Origin: Synechococcales cyanobacterium SupBloom_Metag_052
Lineage (GTDB): Bacteria; Cyanobacteriota; Cyanobacteriia; PCC-6307; Cyanobiaceae
Assembly: GCA_016463595.1 (NCBI GenBank)
Contig: JAEMQZ010000010.1
Span: 1 to 38,460 of the forward strand
DNA length: 38,460 bases
Reading direction: 5' to 3'
Shown: piece after piece, positions 6,198 through 13,901 of the stretch
Layout: every line of letters begins with the position of its first letter
Position numbering within the stretch: the stretch's first letter is position 1
Made by a program: the position numbers and the translations under genes
The notes under the pieces: model-generated
Database searches by the model: none
Seen by the model: only the letters and a program-made list of their open reading frames with translations
Told to the model about the DNA's origin: nothing

Positions 6198-7535
6198 ATG
6201 CTGCCCCCTGCCTTGCCCCAGGCCGACACCCAGTCCGACGTCGCGCCCGAGCCTGGAGCCGAGTCGTCCGGCCTACGGGCCTGGGACCTGGTGGTGGCCG
6301 GCGGCGGACCGGCCGGCTTCATGGCGGCGATCACGGCTGCGGAGGCAGGTGTGCGGCAGGTGGTGCTGCTCGAATCCACCCCCACGCCCCTGGGCAAGGT
6401 GTTAATCAGTGGCGGTGGCCGCTGCAATGTCACCCATGCCGACTGGGACCCCCGCAGCCTGGTGGGCCATTACCCGCGGGGGGGAAAGGCCCTGCTCGGG
6501 CCCTTCAGCCGCTTTGCTACCGGCGACACGGTGGCCTGGTTTGCCGAGCGGGGCCTCTCCCTGGTGGAAGAAGATGACGGCCGCCTGTTCCCCACCAGTA
6601 ACCGGGCCAGTTCGGTGGCGGCCAGCCTGCGCAACGCCGCCCTGGCCGCGGGGGTAACCCTGCGCACGGCGGTGGCCCTCCAGGCTGCCGAGCCCCTGCC
6701 GGCGGGGGGCTTTCGGCTGGCCCTGCGGGCTGGTGGAGGGGTGTTGGAACAGCTGGAGACCCGCCAGTTGGTGCTCGCAACCGGCAGCCACCCCAGTGGC
6801 CGGCGCTTGGCGGCGGACCTGGGCCATGGGCTGGTGCCGCCGGTGCCCTCCCTGTTCACCCTGGCCCTGGCCGGGGGGGGGATGGGCGAGCTGGCAGGCC
6901 TGGTGATGGATCCGGTGGGGTTGAGCCTGGAGTTGGCGGAGGGCCGGTTTCGCCAGTCTGGTCCGGTGCTGTTCACCCACCGGGGCCTGAGTGGCCCGGC
7001 GGTGTTAAGGCTCACGGCCTTTGCGGCCCGCAGTCTCAAGGCGGTGGCCTACCGCTGCGAGCTGGGCGTGGATTGGAGCGGCGGCCGCTCCCAGGCGGAT
7101 CTCGAAGCCCTGTTTGCCAGCCTGCGCAGCGACCAGGCCCGCAAACAGCTCGGGGCCTGGCGGCCCTGGCCAGAGTTGGCCCGGCGTCTTTGGACGGTGC
7201 TGTTGGAGCAGCAGGCCGTCGATCCCCAGCAGCGCTGGGCTGATCTGAGTCGGCCGCAACAACAGCGCCTGATCCAGGCCCTACGCGCCAGCCGTTATCA
7301 GGTCAGCGGCCGCGGCCCCTTCGGCGAGGAATTTGTCACCGCCGGTGGGGTACCCCTGAAGGAGTTGAACCTGGCCACGATGGCTAGTCGCAAGCAGGCC
7401 GGTTTGTATTTGGTCGGAGAACTGCTGGATGTGGATGGGGTGACTGGCGGCTTCAACTTCCAACATTGTTGGACCTCCGGCTGGCTGGCTGGACGGGCGA
7501 TTGCAGCAACAGCCGATCCCAGGCAGGCTAGCTAA
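6198..7535 (+). CDS. HI0933/BaiN-family FAD-dependent oxidoreductase
   Basis: The 445-residue flavoprotein has an FAD-binding Rossmann motif LVVAGGGPAG (31-40) and the family hallmark SGGGRCNVTH (71-80). It ends with the second FAD-contacting block around GELLDVDGVTGG. The HI0933 family (E. coli YhiN relatives, including BaiN) binds FAD; its physiological substrate is mostly unknown, so none is assigned. The ATG at 6198 was chosen because the upstream open frame is only the antisense of dusA. Its first 25 residues are a non-conserved Pro/Ala/Glu tail, so a later start is possible. The gene ends 8 bp inside the 3' end of pilC on the opposite strand. Base composition is normal for the window (GC-rich), unlike pilC. 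Confidence 0.88.
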   Translation: MLPPALPQADTQSDVAPEPGAESSGLRAWDLVVAGGGPAGFMAAITAAEAGVRQVVLLESTPTPLGKVLISGGGRCNVTHADWDPRSLVGHYPRGGKALLGPFSRFATGDTVAWFAERGLSLVEEDDGRLFPTSNRASSVAASLRNAALAAGVTLRTAVALQAAEPLPAGGFRLALRAGGGVLEQLETRQLVLATGSHPSGRRLAADLGHGLVPPVPSLFTLALAGGGMGELAGLVMDPVGLSLELAEGRFRQSGPVLFTHRGLSGPAVLRLTAFAARSLKAVAYRCELGVDWSGGRSQADLEALFASLRSDQARKQLGAWRPWPELARRLWTVLLEQQAVDPQQRWADLSRPQQQRLIQALRASRYQVSGRGPFGEEFVTAGGVPLKELNLATMASRKQAGLYLVGELLDVDGVTGGFNFQHCWTSGWLAGRAIAATADPRQAS

Positions 7536-8781
7536 TGTTTTGAAAAACACTGAACATCGGAAGATACATTGCCACCAGGATTGCCCCCACAATTCCACCG
7601 ACCAACACGATCATGGCCGGTTCGAGCATGGCCGTGAGATTTTTGACAATCAGACCGACTTCTTCTTCGTAAAAATCGGCCACCTTGGAGAGCATGGCGT
7701 CCATTTCACCAGTCTCTTCGCCAATGGCCAACATACTCAAGGCCATGTCAGGGAAGATTTGTTTGCTAAGCAAACTTTTGCTGAGGCTGATGCCCTCCTG
7801 TACATCATTTCTTGCCCGGTCCAGGGCTTCCTGAACGGCCGCATTGCCCGACGTTTGTTTGAGAATTTCTAGGGCCTGAAGAATCGGCACACCGGCCCGG
7901 CTTAGGGCGCTATAGGTACGGCAGAACTGGGCGGTGGCGCTTTTGAGGATTAGGTCACCGAAGAGGGGAATCTTCAAAAGAACCCTATCCACGCCCATGC
8001 GGCCCACGGGTGTAGCGTAATAACGGGAAAAGAGAAAAACTGCTAAGGCAATAACAGCTATTATGGGCAGCATGTATTCGGGTGAACGCAGAAAGCCGCT
8101 TAGATCAACAAGCATCTGGGTAAAGGCGGGCAGCTCGGCGCCAAGGCTTTTAAAAATATCAGCAAATTGCGGAATAATGAAAATCGTCATTCCCAGAAAA
8201 ACAGCAATAGCGATGAATAAAACTGCGACCGGATAGCCCAGGGCACCCTTGATCTGGTTCTGGAGTTTGGCAACATCTTCCTGCAATTTGGCCAGACGCC
8301 GCAAGGTCTCATCGAGTACACCGCCGGCTTCGCCAGCTTCCACCATGGAGACCATCAGTCGGTCGAAAACCATGGGCCAGCGCCGCATGGCGCTGCCGAG
8401 GGTTGTCCCCTGGTTGACTTCGATGCAGATCGCGGTGAGAGCCCGTTTGAACAGGGGTTGGGTCTGCTGGCTGGCCAACATTTCCAGGCTCCTAACGATC
8501 GGTACCCCGGCATCAATTAGGGCTGCCATTTTGTTGGAAAACAGGGCCTTATCCCGCACCCCAGGGCGTTTTTCCAGCATCTTCGAGAGGCTTTGGCCCA
8601 GGTCTGTACGGGGCGCCTTCGCTTTGGTGGGTTTGCTGTTGGTGGGCTGGGGAACAATTGAGGTTGCAATTTTGCCGGAACGCCGCAGGTCTCGCTTGGC
8701 GAGGGCCATGCTCGCTGCCGTAACGTGAACTTCCTTTGTTTCGCCTTGGCGGTTCGTGTAGTTGGCGATGAAAACGGGCAT
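7528..8781 (-). CDS. pilC: Type IV pilus inner-membrane platform protein PilC
   Basis: PilC is the polytopic platform on which the PilB and PilT motors act. The 417 residues contain the two repeated GspF/T2SF helical bundles: one from about 75 (FSNKMAALIDAGVPIVRSLEML) and one from about 280 (FCRTYSALSRAGVPILQALEIL). There are three clear membrane helices at about 188-210, 237-257 and 388-410. The cytoplasmic N-terminus (about 1-60) is Lys-rich. The gene is last in the minus-strand order pilB-pilT-pilC, 86 bp after pilT. Base composition is much lower in GC than the flanks (35% in 8161-8220 by my count). Its stop codon overlaps the end of the flavoprotein gene by 8 bp, tail to tail. Confidence 0.95.
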   Translation of the reverse strand: MPVFIANYTNRQGETKEVHVTAASMALAKRDLRRSGKIATSIVPQPTNSKPTKAKAPRTDLGQSLSKMLEKRPGVRDKALFSNKMAALIDAGVPIVRSLEMLASQQTQPLFKRALTAICIEVNQGTTLGSAMRRWPMVFDRLMVSMVEAGEAGGVLDETLRRLAKLQEDVAKLQNQIKGALGYPVAVLFIAIAVFLGMTIFIIPQFADIFKSLGAELPAFTQMLVDLSGFLRSPEYMLPIIAVIALAVFLFSRYYATPVGRMGVDRVLLKIPLFGDLILKSATAQFCRTYSALSRAGVPILQALEILKQTSGNAAVQEALDRARNDVQEGISLSKSLLSKQIFPDMALSMLAIGEETGEMDAMLSKVADFYEEEVGLIVKNLTAMLEPAMIVLVGGIVGAILVAMYLPMFSVFQNIS

Positions 8782-8867: not shown

Positions 8868-9944
8868 CTAAGTGGCTTGCAGCATCCTACTTAATTCTTC
8901 GGGTTTGCTGGCTTTCGCCAGACCTTCTTTGGCGCTGATAATGTTTTTATTGACCAAGATGGATAGGGCTTTTTCAAGGGTCTGCATGCCAAGTTGCCCG
9001 CCTGTTTGCATCTGAGAATAGAGCTGGGCTGTTTTGCCTTCACGAATTAAATTGGCGATGGCTGGTGTATTGATCATGATTTCCTGGGCCAGCACCCGGG
9101 CGTATTGACCAGGTAAGGGATTAAGGGCCTGGCATAGGGTCTGGCAAAAGATTCCCACCAGGCTGCTGCTGAGTTGGGTGCGAACCTGATTCATTTGTTC
9201 AGCGGGGAACACATCGAGAATGCGGTCGATGGTCTGGTGTGCTGAGCTGGTGTGCAGGGTACCAAAGACAAGGTGGCCGGTTTCGGCAGCAGTGATCGCT
9301 AGTTGGATGGTTTCAAGGTCACGCATTTCTCCAATTAGGATCACATCGGGGTCTTCCCGCAAAGCCGCCCGTAGGGCTGCACTGAAACTCTTGGTGTCTT
9401 CGTTGATTTGCCGCTGATGAATCAGGCTGAGGTCATTGACATAGGTGAATTCGATCGGATCCTCGATGGTAAGAATATGTTCGGCCCTGCTGTGGTTGAT
9501 GTGGTCCATCAAGGAGGCCAAGGTGGTGGTTTTCCCCGAGCCAGTGGGGCCGGTCACAAGAATCAGGCCCCTCGGTTTGCTGCAGGAGTCCACTACCACG
9601 GCCGGCAGGGCCAACTCTTCCGTGGTCGGAATATGGTTGCTGAGGGCGCGCAGGCAAGCGGCATAGGTGCCTCGTTGCCGGTAGGCATTAACGCGGAATC
9701 GGGCGATTCCCTTCAGTCCATAGGCACAGTCCAGTTCCCAGGTCTGCTCCAGTTGTTTGCGTTGGGAGTTGTTGACGAGCGAAAAAATTAATTGATTACA
9801 GTCCTGTTCTGTGAGCTTCTCTTCGCGCATGGGCGTCAGCCTTCCATTGAAACGTCCATAGGGGGGCTGGCCGACTGAGAGATGCAGGTCACTGCCACCC
9901 CCCTCCACCAGTTGGGTCATGAGGTCTTCGATCAGTAATTCCAT
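8868..9944 (-). CDS. pilT: Type IV pilus retraction ATPase PilT
   Basis: PilT is the hexameric cytoplasmic ATPase that disassembles the pilus, driving twitching and DNA uptake. The 358 residues show an N-terminal PAS-like domain, Walker A GPTGSGKTTT (132-141), the Asp box (EDPIEF, 161-166), Walker B region DPDVILIGEMRD (198-209) and the His box GHLVFGTLHTSSA. The C-terminal AIANLIREGK is the PilT-specific retraction motif (AIRNLIRE in other species), which separates PilT from PilB. It follows pilB after 168 AT-rich bases holding a strong hairpin and a good promoter, so pilT and pilC can probably be expressed without pilB. Confidence 0.97.
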   Translation of the reverse strand: MELLIEDLMTQLVEGGGSDLHLSVGQPPYGRFNGRLTPMREEKLTEQDCNQLIFSLVNNSQRKQLEQTWELDCAYGLKGIARFRVNAYRQRGTYAACLRALSNHIPTTEELALPAVVVDSCSKPRGLILVTGPTGSGKTTTLASLMDHINHSRAEHILTIEDPIEFTYVNDLSLIHQRQINEDTKSFSAALRAALREDPDVILIGEMRDLETIQLAITAAETGHLVFGTLHTSSAHQTIDRILDVFPAEQMNQVRTQLSSSLVGIFCQTLCQALNPLPGQYARVLAQEIMINTPAIANLIREGKTAQLYSQMQTGGQLGMQTLEKALSILVNKNIISAKEGLAKASKPEELSRMLQAT

Positions 9945-10112: not shown

Positions 10113-11921
10113 TTAATTCCTTGGAGTTAAGCAGTAGGGGCATTCCAGCCATTCATCCTGCATACCGGCGCCACAGCCCTTGCAACTGATCGCGTGCAGG
10201 GCCTTGGCCTTGCGCTCCGATTCAAGACCGGTATCGGTGAGAATCATCCGGCCAACCTCTTCTAGGGTGGTGTGGCCATTGCGAACCAGGTCAAGTCCGT
10301 AGCCGAGTAGGGTTATCATGCCATTTTCTATGGCCAGACGGCGTATCTGCTCCGTGCTTGCTTCCAGGGAGATGGCAGCGGTTAAAGCATCATTGATACG
10401 CAGGACTTCGTAGACACCAATTCGACCCTTGTACCCGAGACCTTTGCAGGTAGCGCAAGCTTTCTGATGGGGCTCAGTGCCGCGCTTTGCTTTGAAGAAG
10501 CTGATATTGGCTTCGCTATTGGCAAGCAAGCCAAAGCGACCTAGCTCCTGTTCGCTCGGATGGTAAGCAACACGACAGGTGGGACAAACGCGCCTGACGA
10601 GTCGTTGCGAAACGATGCCAATGAGGGAGGCGCTGATCAGGAACGGTTCTACCCCCATTTCCGCAAGTCGGGCAATGGCACTAGGAGCGTCATTGGCATG
10701 CAGGGTGGTTAATACCAGGTGACCGGTAAGGGCCGCTTCAACAGCGGTTTTGGCCGTTTCTAGATCTCTGGTTTCACCGACCAGCAGCACATCGGGATCC
10801 TGGCGCATGAACGCCCGTAGGGCCCGGGGAAAGTCGTAGCCTTTGTCGCGATTCACCTGGGTTTGGGAGATCCCCTTGAGGCTATATTCAATTGGATCCT
10901 CAACGGTTGATATGTTGATAGTTGGACTATTGCGTTCCGATAGGAGTGAATAGAGAGTTGTGGATTTACCCGATCCCGTCGGGCCGGTCACCAGGATCAT
11001 GCCGTAGGGCTTCGATCCCATATCCCTGACCACGGCTAGGGAGTCTTGATTGCTAATCAGTTTGTCGAGTCCTAGTTTGGTCGAACCGCTATCGAGCAGT
11101 CGCAGGCAGACTTTTTCGCCATAACGGGTTGGCAGGGTGCTGACCCGCAGATCGAAGACGCGGCCGCGGTACATGCGGCGAATGCGACCATCCTGGGGCA
11201 GTCGTCGTTCGGCGATATCTAGATCCGCCATGATTTTTAATCTGGACGTGATCGCTGGGATGATATTTTTGGGCAATACGGCGAGCTGTCCGAGCACGCC
11301 ATCGTGGCGTAAGCGAATGACTAGACCATCCTCTTGGGGTTCAACGTGGATATCGCTGGTGCCACTACTAAGGGCTTGAATCAATATCTTGTCAACCAGG
11401 TTGATGATGGGCGAGGAATTGGTTGTTTCCAGGTCCATGTTGGCGAAATTTTCCTCCTCTGGAGCAGCCTCAAGACTGGCTACCTGGTTGAGGTTGTCCA
11501 ACAATGAAAAGGGCTCATTGCTGGTGCTGCCATCGCCCGAATCAACCTGGAAGGACTCCTCTGCAGCCCTGCTTAAGCGTGTTTCTTCCAGAATCGCTTC
11601 GATATCCGTCTTCATCGCCAGACGCAGTTCCAGCCTCAGGCCTTGGCCTAGGGCGATGTCCTGGAGCCGGCCACGGTCTTCCTTTTCAAGGGTGGTGGGT
11701 ATCGCCACCACCAGCACGTCGTTGTGCTGACGAACTGGCAGGCAGGTGAACTCCTCGCATTGCTCCTGGCTGAGCGAGGGGCTCCAGCTCCAACGGATCG
11801 GCCCGGCCTCGCCCAGTTCGGCCGTTGTCAGCAACCGTTCCCCCAAGAGCAGCTCCACTTCGAGCCTCTTCTGCAGGGGATCGCTGGCTACGGGTACGGG
11901 CCGAGAAGGGGTCAAGGCCAT
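10113..11921 (-). CDS. pilB: Type IV pilus assembly ATPase PilB with extra C-terminal zinc-ribbon
   Basis: PilB is the hexameric motor that drives pilin polymerisation. The 602 residues comprise an N-terminal MshEN-like region (about 20-115), an acidic linker, and the GspE core from about 170. Walker A is GPTGSGKST (313-321), the Asp box EDPIEY (341-346) and Walker B ends in VGETRD (381-386). The normal PilB zinc motif is present: C446/C449 and C489/C492. Beyond the usual end there is a further Cys pair set, C580-X2-C583-X10-C594-X2-C597, resembling a small zinc-ribbon; this is unusual for a GspE-type ATPase. It is the first gene of the minus-strand pil block and diverges from grpE across 105 bp. 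Local GC is low (42% in 10861-10920) relative to grpE/dnaJ. Confidence 0.96.
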
Positions 11922-12026: not shown

Positions 12027-12728
12027 ATGAGCGGCGAAACAAACAATCCCCACGACTCCGCTGCCGAGGCCGTTAGTGCCGCGCCGGCCGACCTGTCCTC
12101 TGACCAGTCTCCTGGGGTTGGGGCCGAAGGTCCTGCCCTGGAGGCCATTCCCGATCCGGAAAGCGAGGGCGATGGGGCCAGCGAGGGAGGGTCCGTTTCC
12201 GGCTCCAGGGAAGAGCAGTTGGAGGCGGAACTAACGGCCCTGCGCAGCGAAAACGAGAGCCTGCGCTCCCAGTCCCTGCGGATTGCCGCCGATTTCGACA
12301 ACTTCCGCAAGCGCCAGTCCCGTGAACAGCAGGACCAACGCCTGCAGATCACCTGCTCAACCCTCACCGAGATCCTGCCGGTGGTGGACAACTTTGAGCG
12401 GGCCCGCCAGCAGCTTGAACCCCAGCACGAGGAGGCCCAGGGCCTGCATCGCAGCTACCAGGGGCTTTATAAGCAGCTGGTTGACGTGTTCAAGCAGCTG
12501 GGGGTATCGCCCATGCGGGTGGAGGGCGAACCCTTCGATCCCAGCCTGCATGAGGCCGTCATGCGCGAGCCCAGCGACGAGCATCCCGAGGATGTGGTGA
12601 TTGCCGAACTCCAACGGGGCTATCACCTCGATGGCCGGGTTCTGCGCCATGCCCTGGTCAAGGTGTCGATGGGACCAGGCCCCTCGGCAGCGGCTACGGC
12701 AACGGCCGGCTCCAGCGAAGGCGATTGA
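12027..12728 (+). CDS. grpE: Nucleotide exchange factor GrpE
   Basis: GrpE releases ADP from DnaK so that the chaperone cycle can continue. The 233-residue protein has an acidic, low-complexity N-terminus (1-60), a long coiled coil (about 60-115, containing [15 protein letters not shown]) and the C-terminal beta-wing domain with [14 protein letters not shown]. The ATG at 12027 fits; the open frame runs further upstream but overlaps pilB antisense and is not protein-like. dnaJ follows after 42 bp. No CIRCE element (TTAGCACTC-N9-GAGTGCTAA) is visible in the 105-bp gap to pilB, so HrcA control at this site is not supported. Confidence 0.95.
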
Positions 12729-12770: not shown

Positions 12771-13901
12771 ATGGCGGATTATTACGACCTCTTGGGGGTC
12801 AGCCGGGATGCGGACCCCGAGACCCTCAAGCGGGCCTATCGCCGCATGGCCCGGCAGTACCACCCCGATGTCAACAAGGATCCTGGGGCTGAGGACAAGT
12901 TCAAGGAGATCGGCCGCGCCTACGGGGTGCTCAGCGATCCCCAGACCCGCAGTCGCTACGACCAGTTCGGTGAGGCCGGCCTGGGCGGAGGCGGTGGCAT
13001 GCCCGACATGGGCGACATGGGAGGGTTTGCCGACCTGTTTGAAACCTTCTTCAGTGGCTTCGGCGGCGGCGCCAGCCAGGGCGGCGGCGGCGGTCCCCGG
13101 CGCCGCGGGCCCCGTCAGGGCGACGACCTGCGCTTCGATTTGACAATCAGCTTCAGCGAGGCGATTGCTGGCCAGGAAAAGGAAGTTCAGATCCGGCACC
13201 TGGAAACCTGCACCACCTGCAAGGGCTCGGGTGCCAAGGCCGGCAGCGGCCCCACCACCTGCGGCACCTGCTCTGGAGCTGGCCAGGTGCGACGCGCCAC
13301 CCGCACCCCCTTCGGCAGTTTTACCCAGGTGGCCGCCTGTCCCACCTGTGAGGGCACCGGTGAGGTGATTGCCGACCCCTGCAATGCCTGTGGCGGCCAG
13401 GGCCTGCAACAGGTGCGCAAGAAGCTACGCATCAACATTCCCGCCGGGGTTGATACCGGCACCCGGCTGCGGGTTTCCAACGAGGGCAACGCTGGTCAGC
13501 GGGGTGGCCCGGCCGGTGATTTGTACGTGTTTCTCACGGTTCAGTCCCATCCCCAGCTGCGGCGCGACGGGATCACGATCCACTCCGAGGTCACGGTCAA
13601 TTATCTGCAGGCGATCCTGGGCGACAAGATTGAGGTGGAGACCGTTGACGGACCCCAGGCCCTGGACCTGCCGGCCGGAACCCAGCCGGGGGCGGTGCTC
13701 AACCTCATTGGCAAAGGGGTGCCGAAACTCGGCAACCCCGTGGCCCGGGGCAACCACCTGATCACTATCAAGGTGCAGCTGCCCACCAAGCTCAATGGTG
13801 AGGAGCGCAACTTGCTGGAGGAACTAGCCGGCCACCACAGCGCCAAGGGCCAGAAGCATCCCCACAAGAGCGGCCTGTTTGGCGGCCTGTTCGGTGGTTG
13901 A
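12771..13901 (+). CDS. dnaJ: Chaperone protein DnaJ, type I
   Basis: The 376-residue co-chaperone stimulates DnaK ATPase activity and delivers unfolded clients. It has a J domain (1-67) with HPD at 31-33, a Gly/Met-rich linker (about 70-115), and four complete zinc-binding CXXCXGXG repeats at C147/C150, C164/C167, C190/C193 and C204/C207. Two beta-barrel client-binding domains and a Gly-rich C-terminal tail follow. All type I features are intact. It is in the grpE-dnaJ-tusA-like-rsgA group. Possible starts of the next gene (TTG 13879, GTG 13894) overlap the 3' end of dnaJ, suggesting translational coupling. Confidence 0.96.

Follow-up and report, generated by a model that had tools for sequence, protein, structure and literature searches.

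The C-terminal cysteine ribbon of cyanobacterial PilB: a probable docking site for Hfq, with similar ribbon arrays in non-photosynthetic relatives

The type IV pilus extension ATPase PilB encoded in the window (the whole stretch of 38,460 nucleotides analysed here) carries four cysteines close to its C-terminus, in addition to those of the internal metal site, which raises the questions of what this terminal module is, how widely it is shared and which partner it might bind. The features to which we refer are the following:

7528..8781, minus strand: pilC, platform protein (T2SSF; Pfam T2SSF, 1.1e-64)
8868..9944, minus strand: pilT, retraction ATPase, adjoining pilB (Pfam T2SSE, 2.6e-49; resembles the pilT neighbours at other pilB loci)
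10113..11921, minus strand: pilB, type IV pilus extension ATPase, 602 amino acids (open reading frame translation; Pfam T2SSE, 5.3e-122)
10116..10232, minus strand: C-terminal extension past the PilB core, residues 564–602, comprising a predicted helix (564–576) and the ribbon (solved chains, models)
10131..10184, minus strand: four-cysteine ribbon C580-X2-C583-X10-C594-X2-C597 (translation; four cysteines in 62/62 loci)
10446..10586, minus strand: internal PilB metal site C446, C449, C489, C492, residues 446–492 (kept in 62/62 loci)
12027..12728, plus strand: grpE, divergent from pilB (Pfam GrpE, 2.3e-42)
12771..13901, plus strand: dnaJ (Pfam DnaJ and DnaJ_C)

The translated PilB contains cysteines at positions 55, 60, 272, 446, 449, 489, 492, 580, 583, 594 and 597, among them the second four-cysteine site that the initial annotation had claimed apart from C446/C449/C489/C492; residues 578–602 together with the stop codon correspond to window positions 10113–10190. 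The ATPase core (Pfam T2SSE) spans residues 166–557 and a PilB-type N-terminal part is present (MshEN, 24.4 bits, cut-off 23.1), with the TIGR02538 model of type IV-A PilB scoring 511.5 bits, below its curated cut-off of 675.65. The gene order pilB-pilT-pilC with grpE close by fits cyanobacterial PilB1, and GrpE or DnaJ is encoded beside 53 of 57 tail-bearing pilB loci. As far as the 2015 review of the field describes it (PMC4390875), Synechocystis pilB1 (slr0063) has the same core, internal four-cysteine site and four-cysteine tail. The pilB-pilT-pilC order, the adjacent grpE and a genomic Hfq are likewise common to both organisms, and we found no important difference between the two systems. 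The window's PilB is an ordinary cyanobacterial PilB1 with the usual tail, and the feature is already known: according to the same review, cyanobacterial PilB1 ends in a tetra-cysteine domain that is zinc-finger-like and invariant, and that neither PilB2 nor the PilB of other bacteria carries.

Extent and conservation of the PilB tail

The tail is a true C-terminal extension, given that the Pfam core stops at residue 557 and that the alignments of the 21 listed solved chains, some of them truncated constructs, all end at or before residue 563. The solved PilB, GspE and PilF structures (5zfr, 5tsg, 3jc8, 6f8l, 1p9r) have the ATPase core in common with the window's PilB, from approximately residues 137–175 to 556–563, and no match beyond. 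All four tail cysteines, and likewise the four internal ones, occur in each of the 62 PilB loci that were fetched, which are mostly best-scoring matches and include the window's own. The alignment of cyanobacterial PilBs proposed in the initial annotation thus yields full conservation, ruling out chance or an annotation error as the source of the tail. Mean identity to the window across 60 loci is highest for the ribbon (77%), followed by the core (72%), the linker (59%) and the N-terminal part (35%); that is, the ribbon is conserved as well as the core and the linker less so, and the linker preceding the ribbon varies between cyanobacterial PilB1 lineages. Within a set of 61 sequences chosen with a Cys-pattern filter, the distance from first to last cysteine is 18 residues in 60, the 61st being a second pilB without tail, and across the 60 distinct tails W591, Y596 and D563 are invariant and the cysteine spacing is constant.

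We further drew 291 genomes from the class and accepted PilB matches at E 1e-60 or better. Such matches were found in 280, and all 11 genomes without one belong to the window's own family, which we take to be Cyanobiaceae. The class genomes outside this family number 255, of which 221 were examined to the PilB end (33 dropped out when five large genera were thinned, and 1 was overlooked). The tail is present in 219 of these 221 genomes and is accordingly class-wide, so that the rarity implied by the initial annotation has to be given up; together with the 2015 review (PMC4390875), this survey rules out a lineage-specific novelty. The match itself reaches residue 600–602 in 217 genomes (133/133, 8/8 and 76/80), and the remaining four comprise two with the tail in another frame, one in which the match ends at the contig's end and one with a paralogue only. 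The earlier statement that ATPases of this type normally have only the internal site holds for the relatives outside the phylum that were covered here, judging by the ends of the Pfam core and of the solved chains, but inside the class the tail is the rule.

Second PilB copies mostly stop at residues 559–580 and lack the tail, with one copy that has an internal stop extending to 593. Separately, pilB is split by a frameshift or stop at three loci (L101, L165 and L166), where the ribbon is still readable downstream.

Predicted fold of the ribbon

A model of the 42-residue tail based on 43 sequences reaches a pLDDT of 86–90 over most of the ribbon and places a helix at residues 564–576. The helix is also predicted by AlphaFold for residues 160–602, with a ribbon pLDDT of only 53–59. 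Pfam zinc-ribbon models match the tail below their gathering thresholds (Zn_Ribbon_1, PF13240, 19.2 versus 25 bits; DZR, PF12773, 17.5 versus 27.3 bits), and zf-RanBP has no Pfam match in it. A Foldseek search with the tail model gave no significant match, the top one being a ribosomal chain (E 0.15); many of the next-nearest matches are small four-cysteine fingers of the RanBP2/NZF type (best finger, E 0.20), and most of the listed fingers superpose at an rmsd of 0.6–1.4 over 25–28 residues. Fingers of the RanBP2/NZF family have the spacing C-X2-C-X10-C-X2-C. The tail has this spacing as well; the matches are not significant, and the two likely have a small ribbon fold in common, with no kinship claimed. 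The confidence of the tail model, the four-cysteine fingers among its (not significant) neighbours and the sub-threshold Pfam zinc ribbons all support the separate C-terminal ribbon predicted in the initial annotation. The PilB tail is probably a small zinc-binding knob, zinc being the metal that we infer.

Hfq and the tail-bearing PilB

For Synechocystis 6803, the PilB1 C-terminal domain is described as interacting with Hfq and placing it (PMC4390875), and Hfq binding is elsewhere attributed to the PilB extension (PMC12288463). The docking of a cyanobacterial regulator, suggested in the initial annotation, is borne out by these two sources insofar as they name Hfq as the partner; for PilC, the other partner suggested there, we found no support. 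A PilB-Hfq-EbsA complex has also been reported (PMC8092324, PMC11407516), and cyanobacterial Hfq is described as having a role in motility and as being no RNA chaperone (PMC10989914).

The genome from which the window derives encodes a 79-aa cyanobacterial-type Hfq, divergent from dapF (G000:C34:16882-17118; L034:752-988), which matches the cyanobacterial Hfq structures 3hfn (E 3.9e-5) and 3hfo (E 2.6e-4). The Pfam model PF17209 detected no Hfq in this genome and none in the Synechococcus elongatus control. Because of these misses, we relied on our own Hfq alignments and retained PF17209 solely for the canonical Hfq search; for the same reason, Pfam-based surveys may undercount Hfq.

Across 151 genomes of the window's family, Hfq is found in 105 of the 106 that bear the tail versus 5 of the 45 others. 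The latter include eight genomes whose sole PilB is tail-less, at approximately 50% identity (Hfq in 0/8), nine with only a more distant pilB (1/9) and 28 without a PilB match (4/28, one of the copies with two stops). The single tail-bearing exception, the draft genome G330, yielded no Hfq with either Hfq model. For the class draw, Hfq was counted in at least 262 of 291 genomes with 19 first-look candidates scored per genome, a restriction owing to which some of the absences in the first count are false: a recheck of 14 tail-bearing or unsettled genomes (13 from the class draw and G330) recovered Hfq in 4 more. Losses cluster in few genera, so that the number of independent events is much smaller than that of genomes, and since PilB1 and the tail go together, the co-occurrence of tail and Hfq does not isolate the tail. 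Fisher p values for the family counts carry no correction for kinship, and we do not treat them as proof. The Hfq copy with two in-frame stops (L171, G392:C15:422300-424600) belongs to a picocyanobacterium; in three relatives equally without a PilB match (G221, G248 and G369), the copy is still open.

The tail-less members of the family, presumably Prochlorococcus-like, deserve separate consideration. Neither GrpE nor DnaJ is encoded within the fetched flanks of any of the 18 tail-less loci (L093–L100, L102–L110 and L112). The tree, in which 7 of the 8 tail-less PilBs of approximately 50% identity were included, puts them, with long branches, in a group with the second pilB; their placement with the window's family is not rejected by the AU test (p 0.29). 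Given this location away from grpE and dnaJ, as far as the fetched flanks extend, and the grouping with the second pilB, the co-loss with Hfq concerns PilB1 as a whole, and we do not claim the loss of the tail from a Prochlorococcus-like PilB1 as a clean natural experiment. Tail-less pilB-pilT units of picocyanobacteria contain the sole pilB in some genomes and occur in addition to a tail-bearing pilB in others.

The explanation that we favour, with a probability of roughly 0.7, is that the tail is the standard dock of cyanobacterial PilB1, that Hfq is its partner and that six tails hold the Hfq ring at the pilus base. Each motor subunit would end in a helix followed by a single zinc-loaded four-cysteine ribbon serving as a docking knob. 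The ribbon's partner in this organism, too, would be Hfq, as an Sm-ring protein employed for pilus assembly and not for RNA work. The six tails of the PilB hexamer would then hold the Hfq ring, ring upon ring, and the Hfq ring together with EbsA might license pilus extension. Counting against this explanation are the five genomes of the family in which Hfq persists without the tail (four lacking a PilB match, one having only a second pilB), the tail-bearing draft G330 and the low pLDDT of the ribbon in the longer model.

Ribbon arrays outside the photosynthetic class

A draw of 117 genomes from the phylum revealed several families outside the window's class in which PilB ends in ribbons. The PilBs of Sericytochromatia/Tanganyikabacteria, the former assigned from named records and the tree, and of Obscuribacterales carry one to three C-terminal four-cysteine ribbons (L116–L133, L200–L212). 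The Obscuribacterales clade consists of 13 records, namely, 8 labelled Obscuribacterales or Obscuribacter, 2 Melainabacteria and 3 other, including 1 Chloroflexi; this last one, a metagenome-assembled genome with a ribbon array on its pilB (L200), groups with Obscuribacterales and is possibly mis-binned. Two families of small genomes, presumably Gastranaerophilales-like (f43 and f50), had no tail in the phylum draw.

The spacing C-X2-C-X10-C-X2-C recurs in 73 of 73 ribbons from 29 arrays. When scored with a model of the cyanobacterial ribbon, the last ribbon is the nearest to the cyanobacterial one in 17 of 19 triple arrays (12/13 from the Obscuribacterales clade, 4/4 extra copies and 1/2 others), with means in the Obscuribacterales-clade triple arrays of 21.6 bits for the last ribbon versus 10.2 and 8.9 for the others; the corresponding figure for double arrays is 1 of 6. 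Four single ribbons behind a long linker score 21–25 with the same model. Most of the pilBs with ribbon arrays adjoin pilT and many adjoin pilC. Most of their cores form one supported group with cyanobacterial PilB1 in a quick tree, a group that also includes the tail-less picocyanobacterial PilBs and the ribbon-less L122 but not four of the triple-ribbon copies.

Sericytochromatia and Obscuribacterales PilBs (L117, L121, L200–L212) thus have the PilB core, the pilB-pilT(-pilC) order and the C-terminal ribbons in common with the window, but differ in having either a long linker or as many as three ribbons. A further difference is that no clear cyanobacterial-type Hfq was found in 13 ribbon-bearing genomes outside the class, a sample apparently without Obscuribacterales; the best partial match had an E-value of 0.001 with the first model and 0.31 with the second, two more reached 0.45 and 0.71, and canonical Hfq (PF17209) was detected in 1 of the 13, an assembly with 9% contamination. 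The outcome that the initial annotation named as refuting, namely, that most PilBs outside the clade share the four cysteines, did not arise, as solved PilBs of other phyla are without the tail; ribbons of a similar kind are nevertheless present in other classes of the phylum. Ribbon arrays of non-photosynthetic classes were not found in the literature that we searched, although this search was not exhaustive, and they represent the new part of the present analysis, the tail itself being already published.

Since ribbon-bearing relatives outside the class are without a clear cyanobacterial-type Hfq, Hfq is not the sole reason for the ribbon, which may pre-date its partnership with Hfq. The occurrence of arrays in non-photosynthetic classes, apparently without such an Hfq, suggests that the docking site came first. 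Tentatively, and at slightly less than even odds, the tail could be the surviving last ribbon of an array present on the PilB of the phylum's common ancestor and thus pre-dating the photosynthetic class, with Hfq recruited later and giving up its RNA work. Nearly a coin toss, in our estimate, is the related possibility that the phylum's PilB has in the ribbon a general docking module of older date, with Hfq a late or secondary cyanobacterial partner; the proposed target of the ribbon would be a different protein of the pilus base or a contact between subunits. The uniform spacing of the one to three ribbons in Sericytochromatia and Obscuribacterales, mostly in the pilB-pilT(-pilC) order, the scarcity of Hfq in the 13 genomes and the grouping of most array cores with cyanobacterial PilB1 are consistent with such a module. 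Nevertheless, a very divergent Hfq might escape detection, Obscuribacterales lie outside the Hfq sample, generic zinc ribbons could have been gained independently, double arrays do not follow the pattern of the triple ones, and the four triple-ribbon copies branch outside the PilB1 clade.

Two further explanations leave Hfq out of direct contact with the ribbon or replace docking altogether. That the ribbon's main role is to fold or stabilise PilB, or that its partner is EbsA and not Hfq, with the Hfq contacts being indirect, would accord with a report of Nostoc two-hybrid assays in which EbsA binds PilB directly and Hfq only very weakly (PMC11407516), and with the zinc of the related EpsE being reported as essential (PMC5061722); we nonetheless regard it as unlikely, as it is to the C-terminal domain of PilB that reviews attribute the binding of Hfq (PMC4390875, PMC12288463). 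It is even harder to see the four thiols as a redox switch or an RNA-binding knuckle instead of a protein dock, an option to which we give very little credence: the fold neighbours do include the RNA-bound ZRANB2 finger (Foldseek, not significant), but many of them are Ran- and ubiquitin-binding fingers, a metal ribbon suits both the cysteine spacing and the invariance of W591 and Y596, and we found no redox or RNA evidence. Under the favoured explanation, in which the tail is the standard PilB1 dock for Hfq, the C-terminus of PilB would be the meeting point of the cyanobacterial pilus motor and Hfq, a protein that is an RNA chaperone elsewhere and would be a part of the pilus here.
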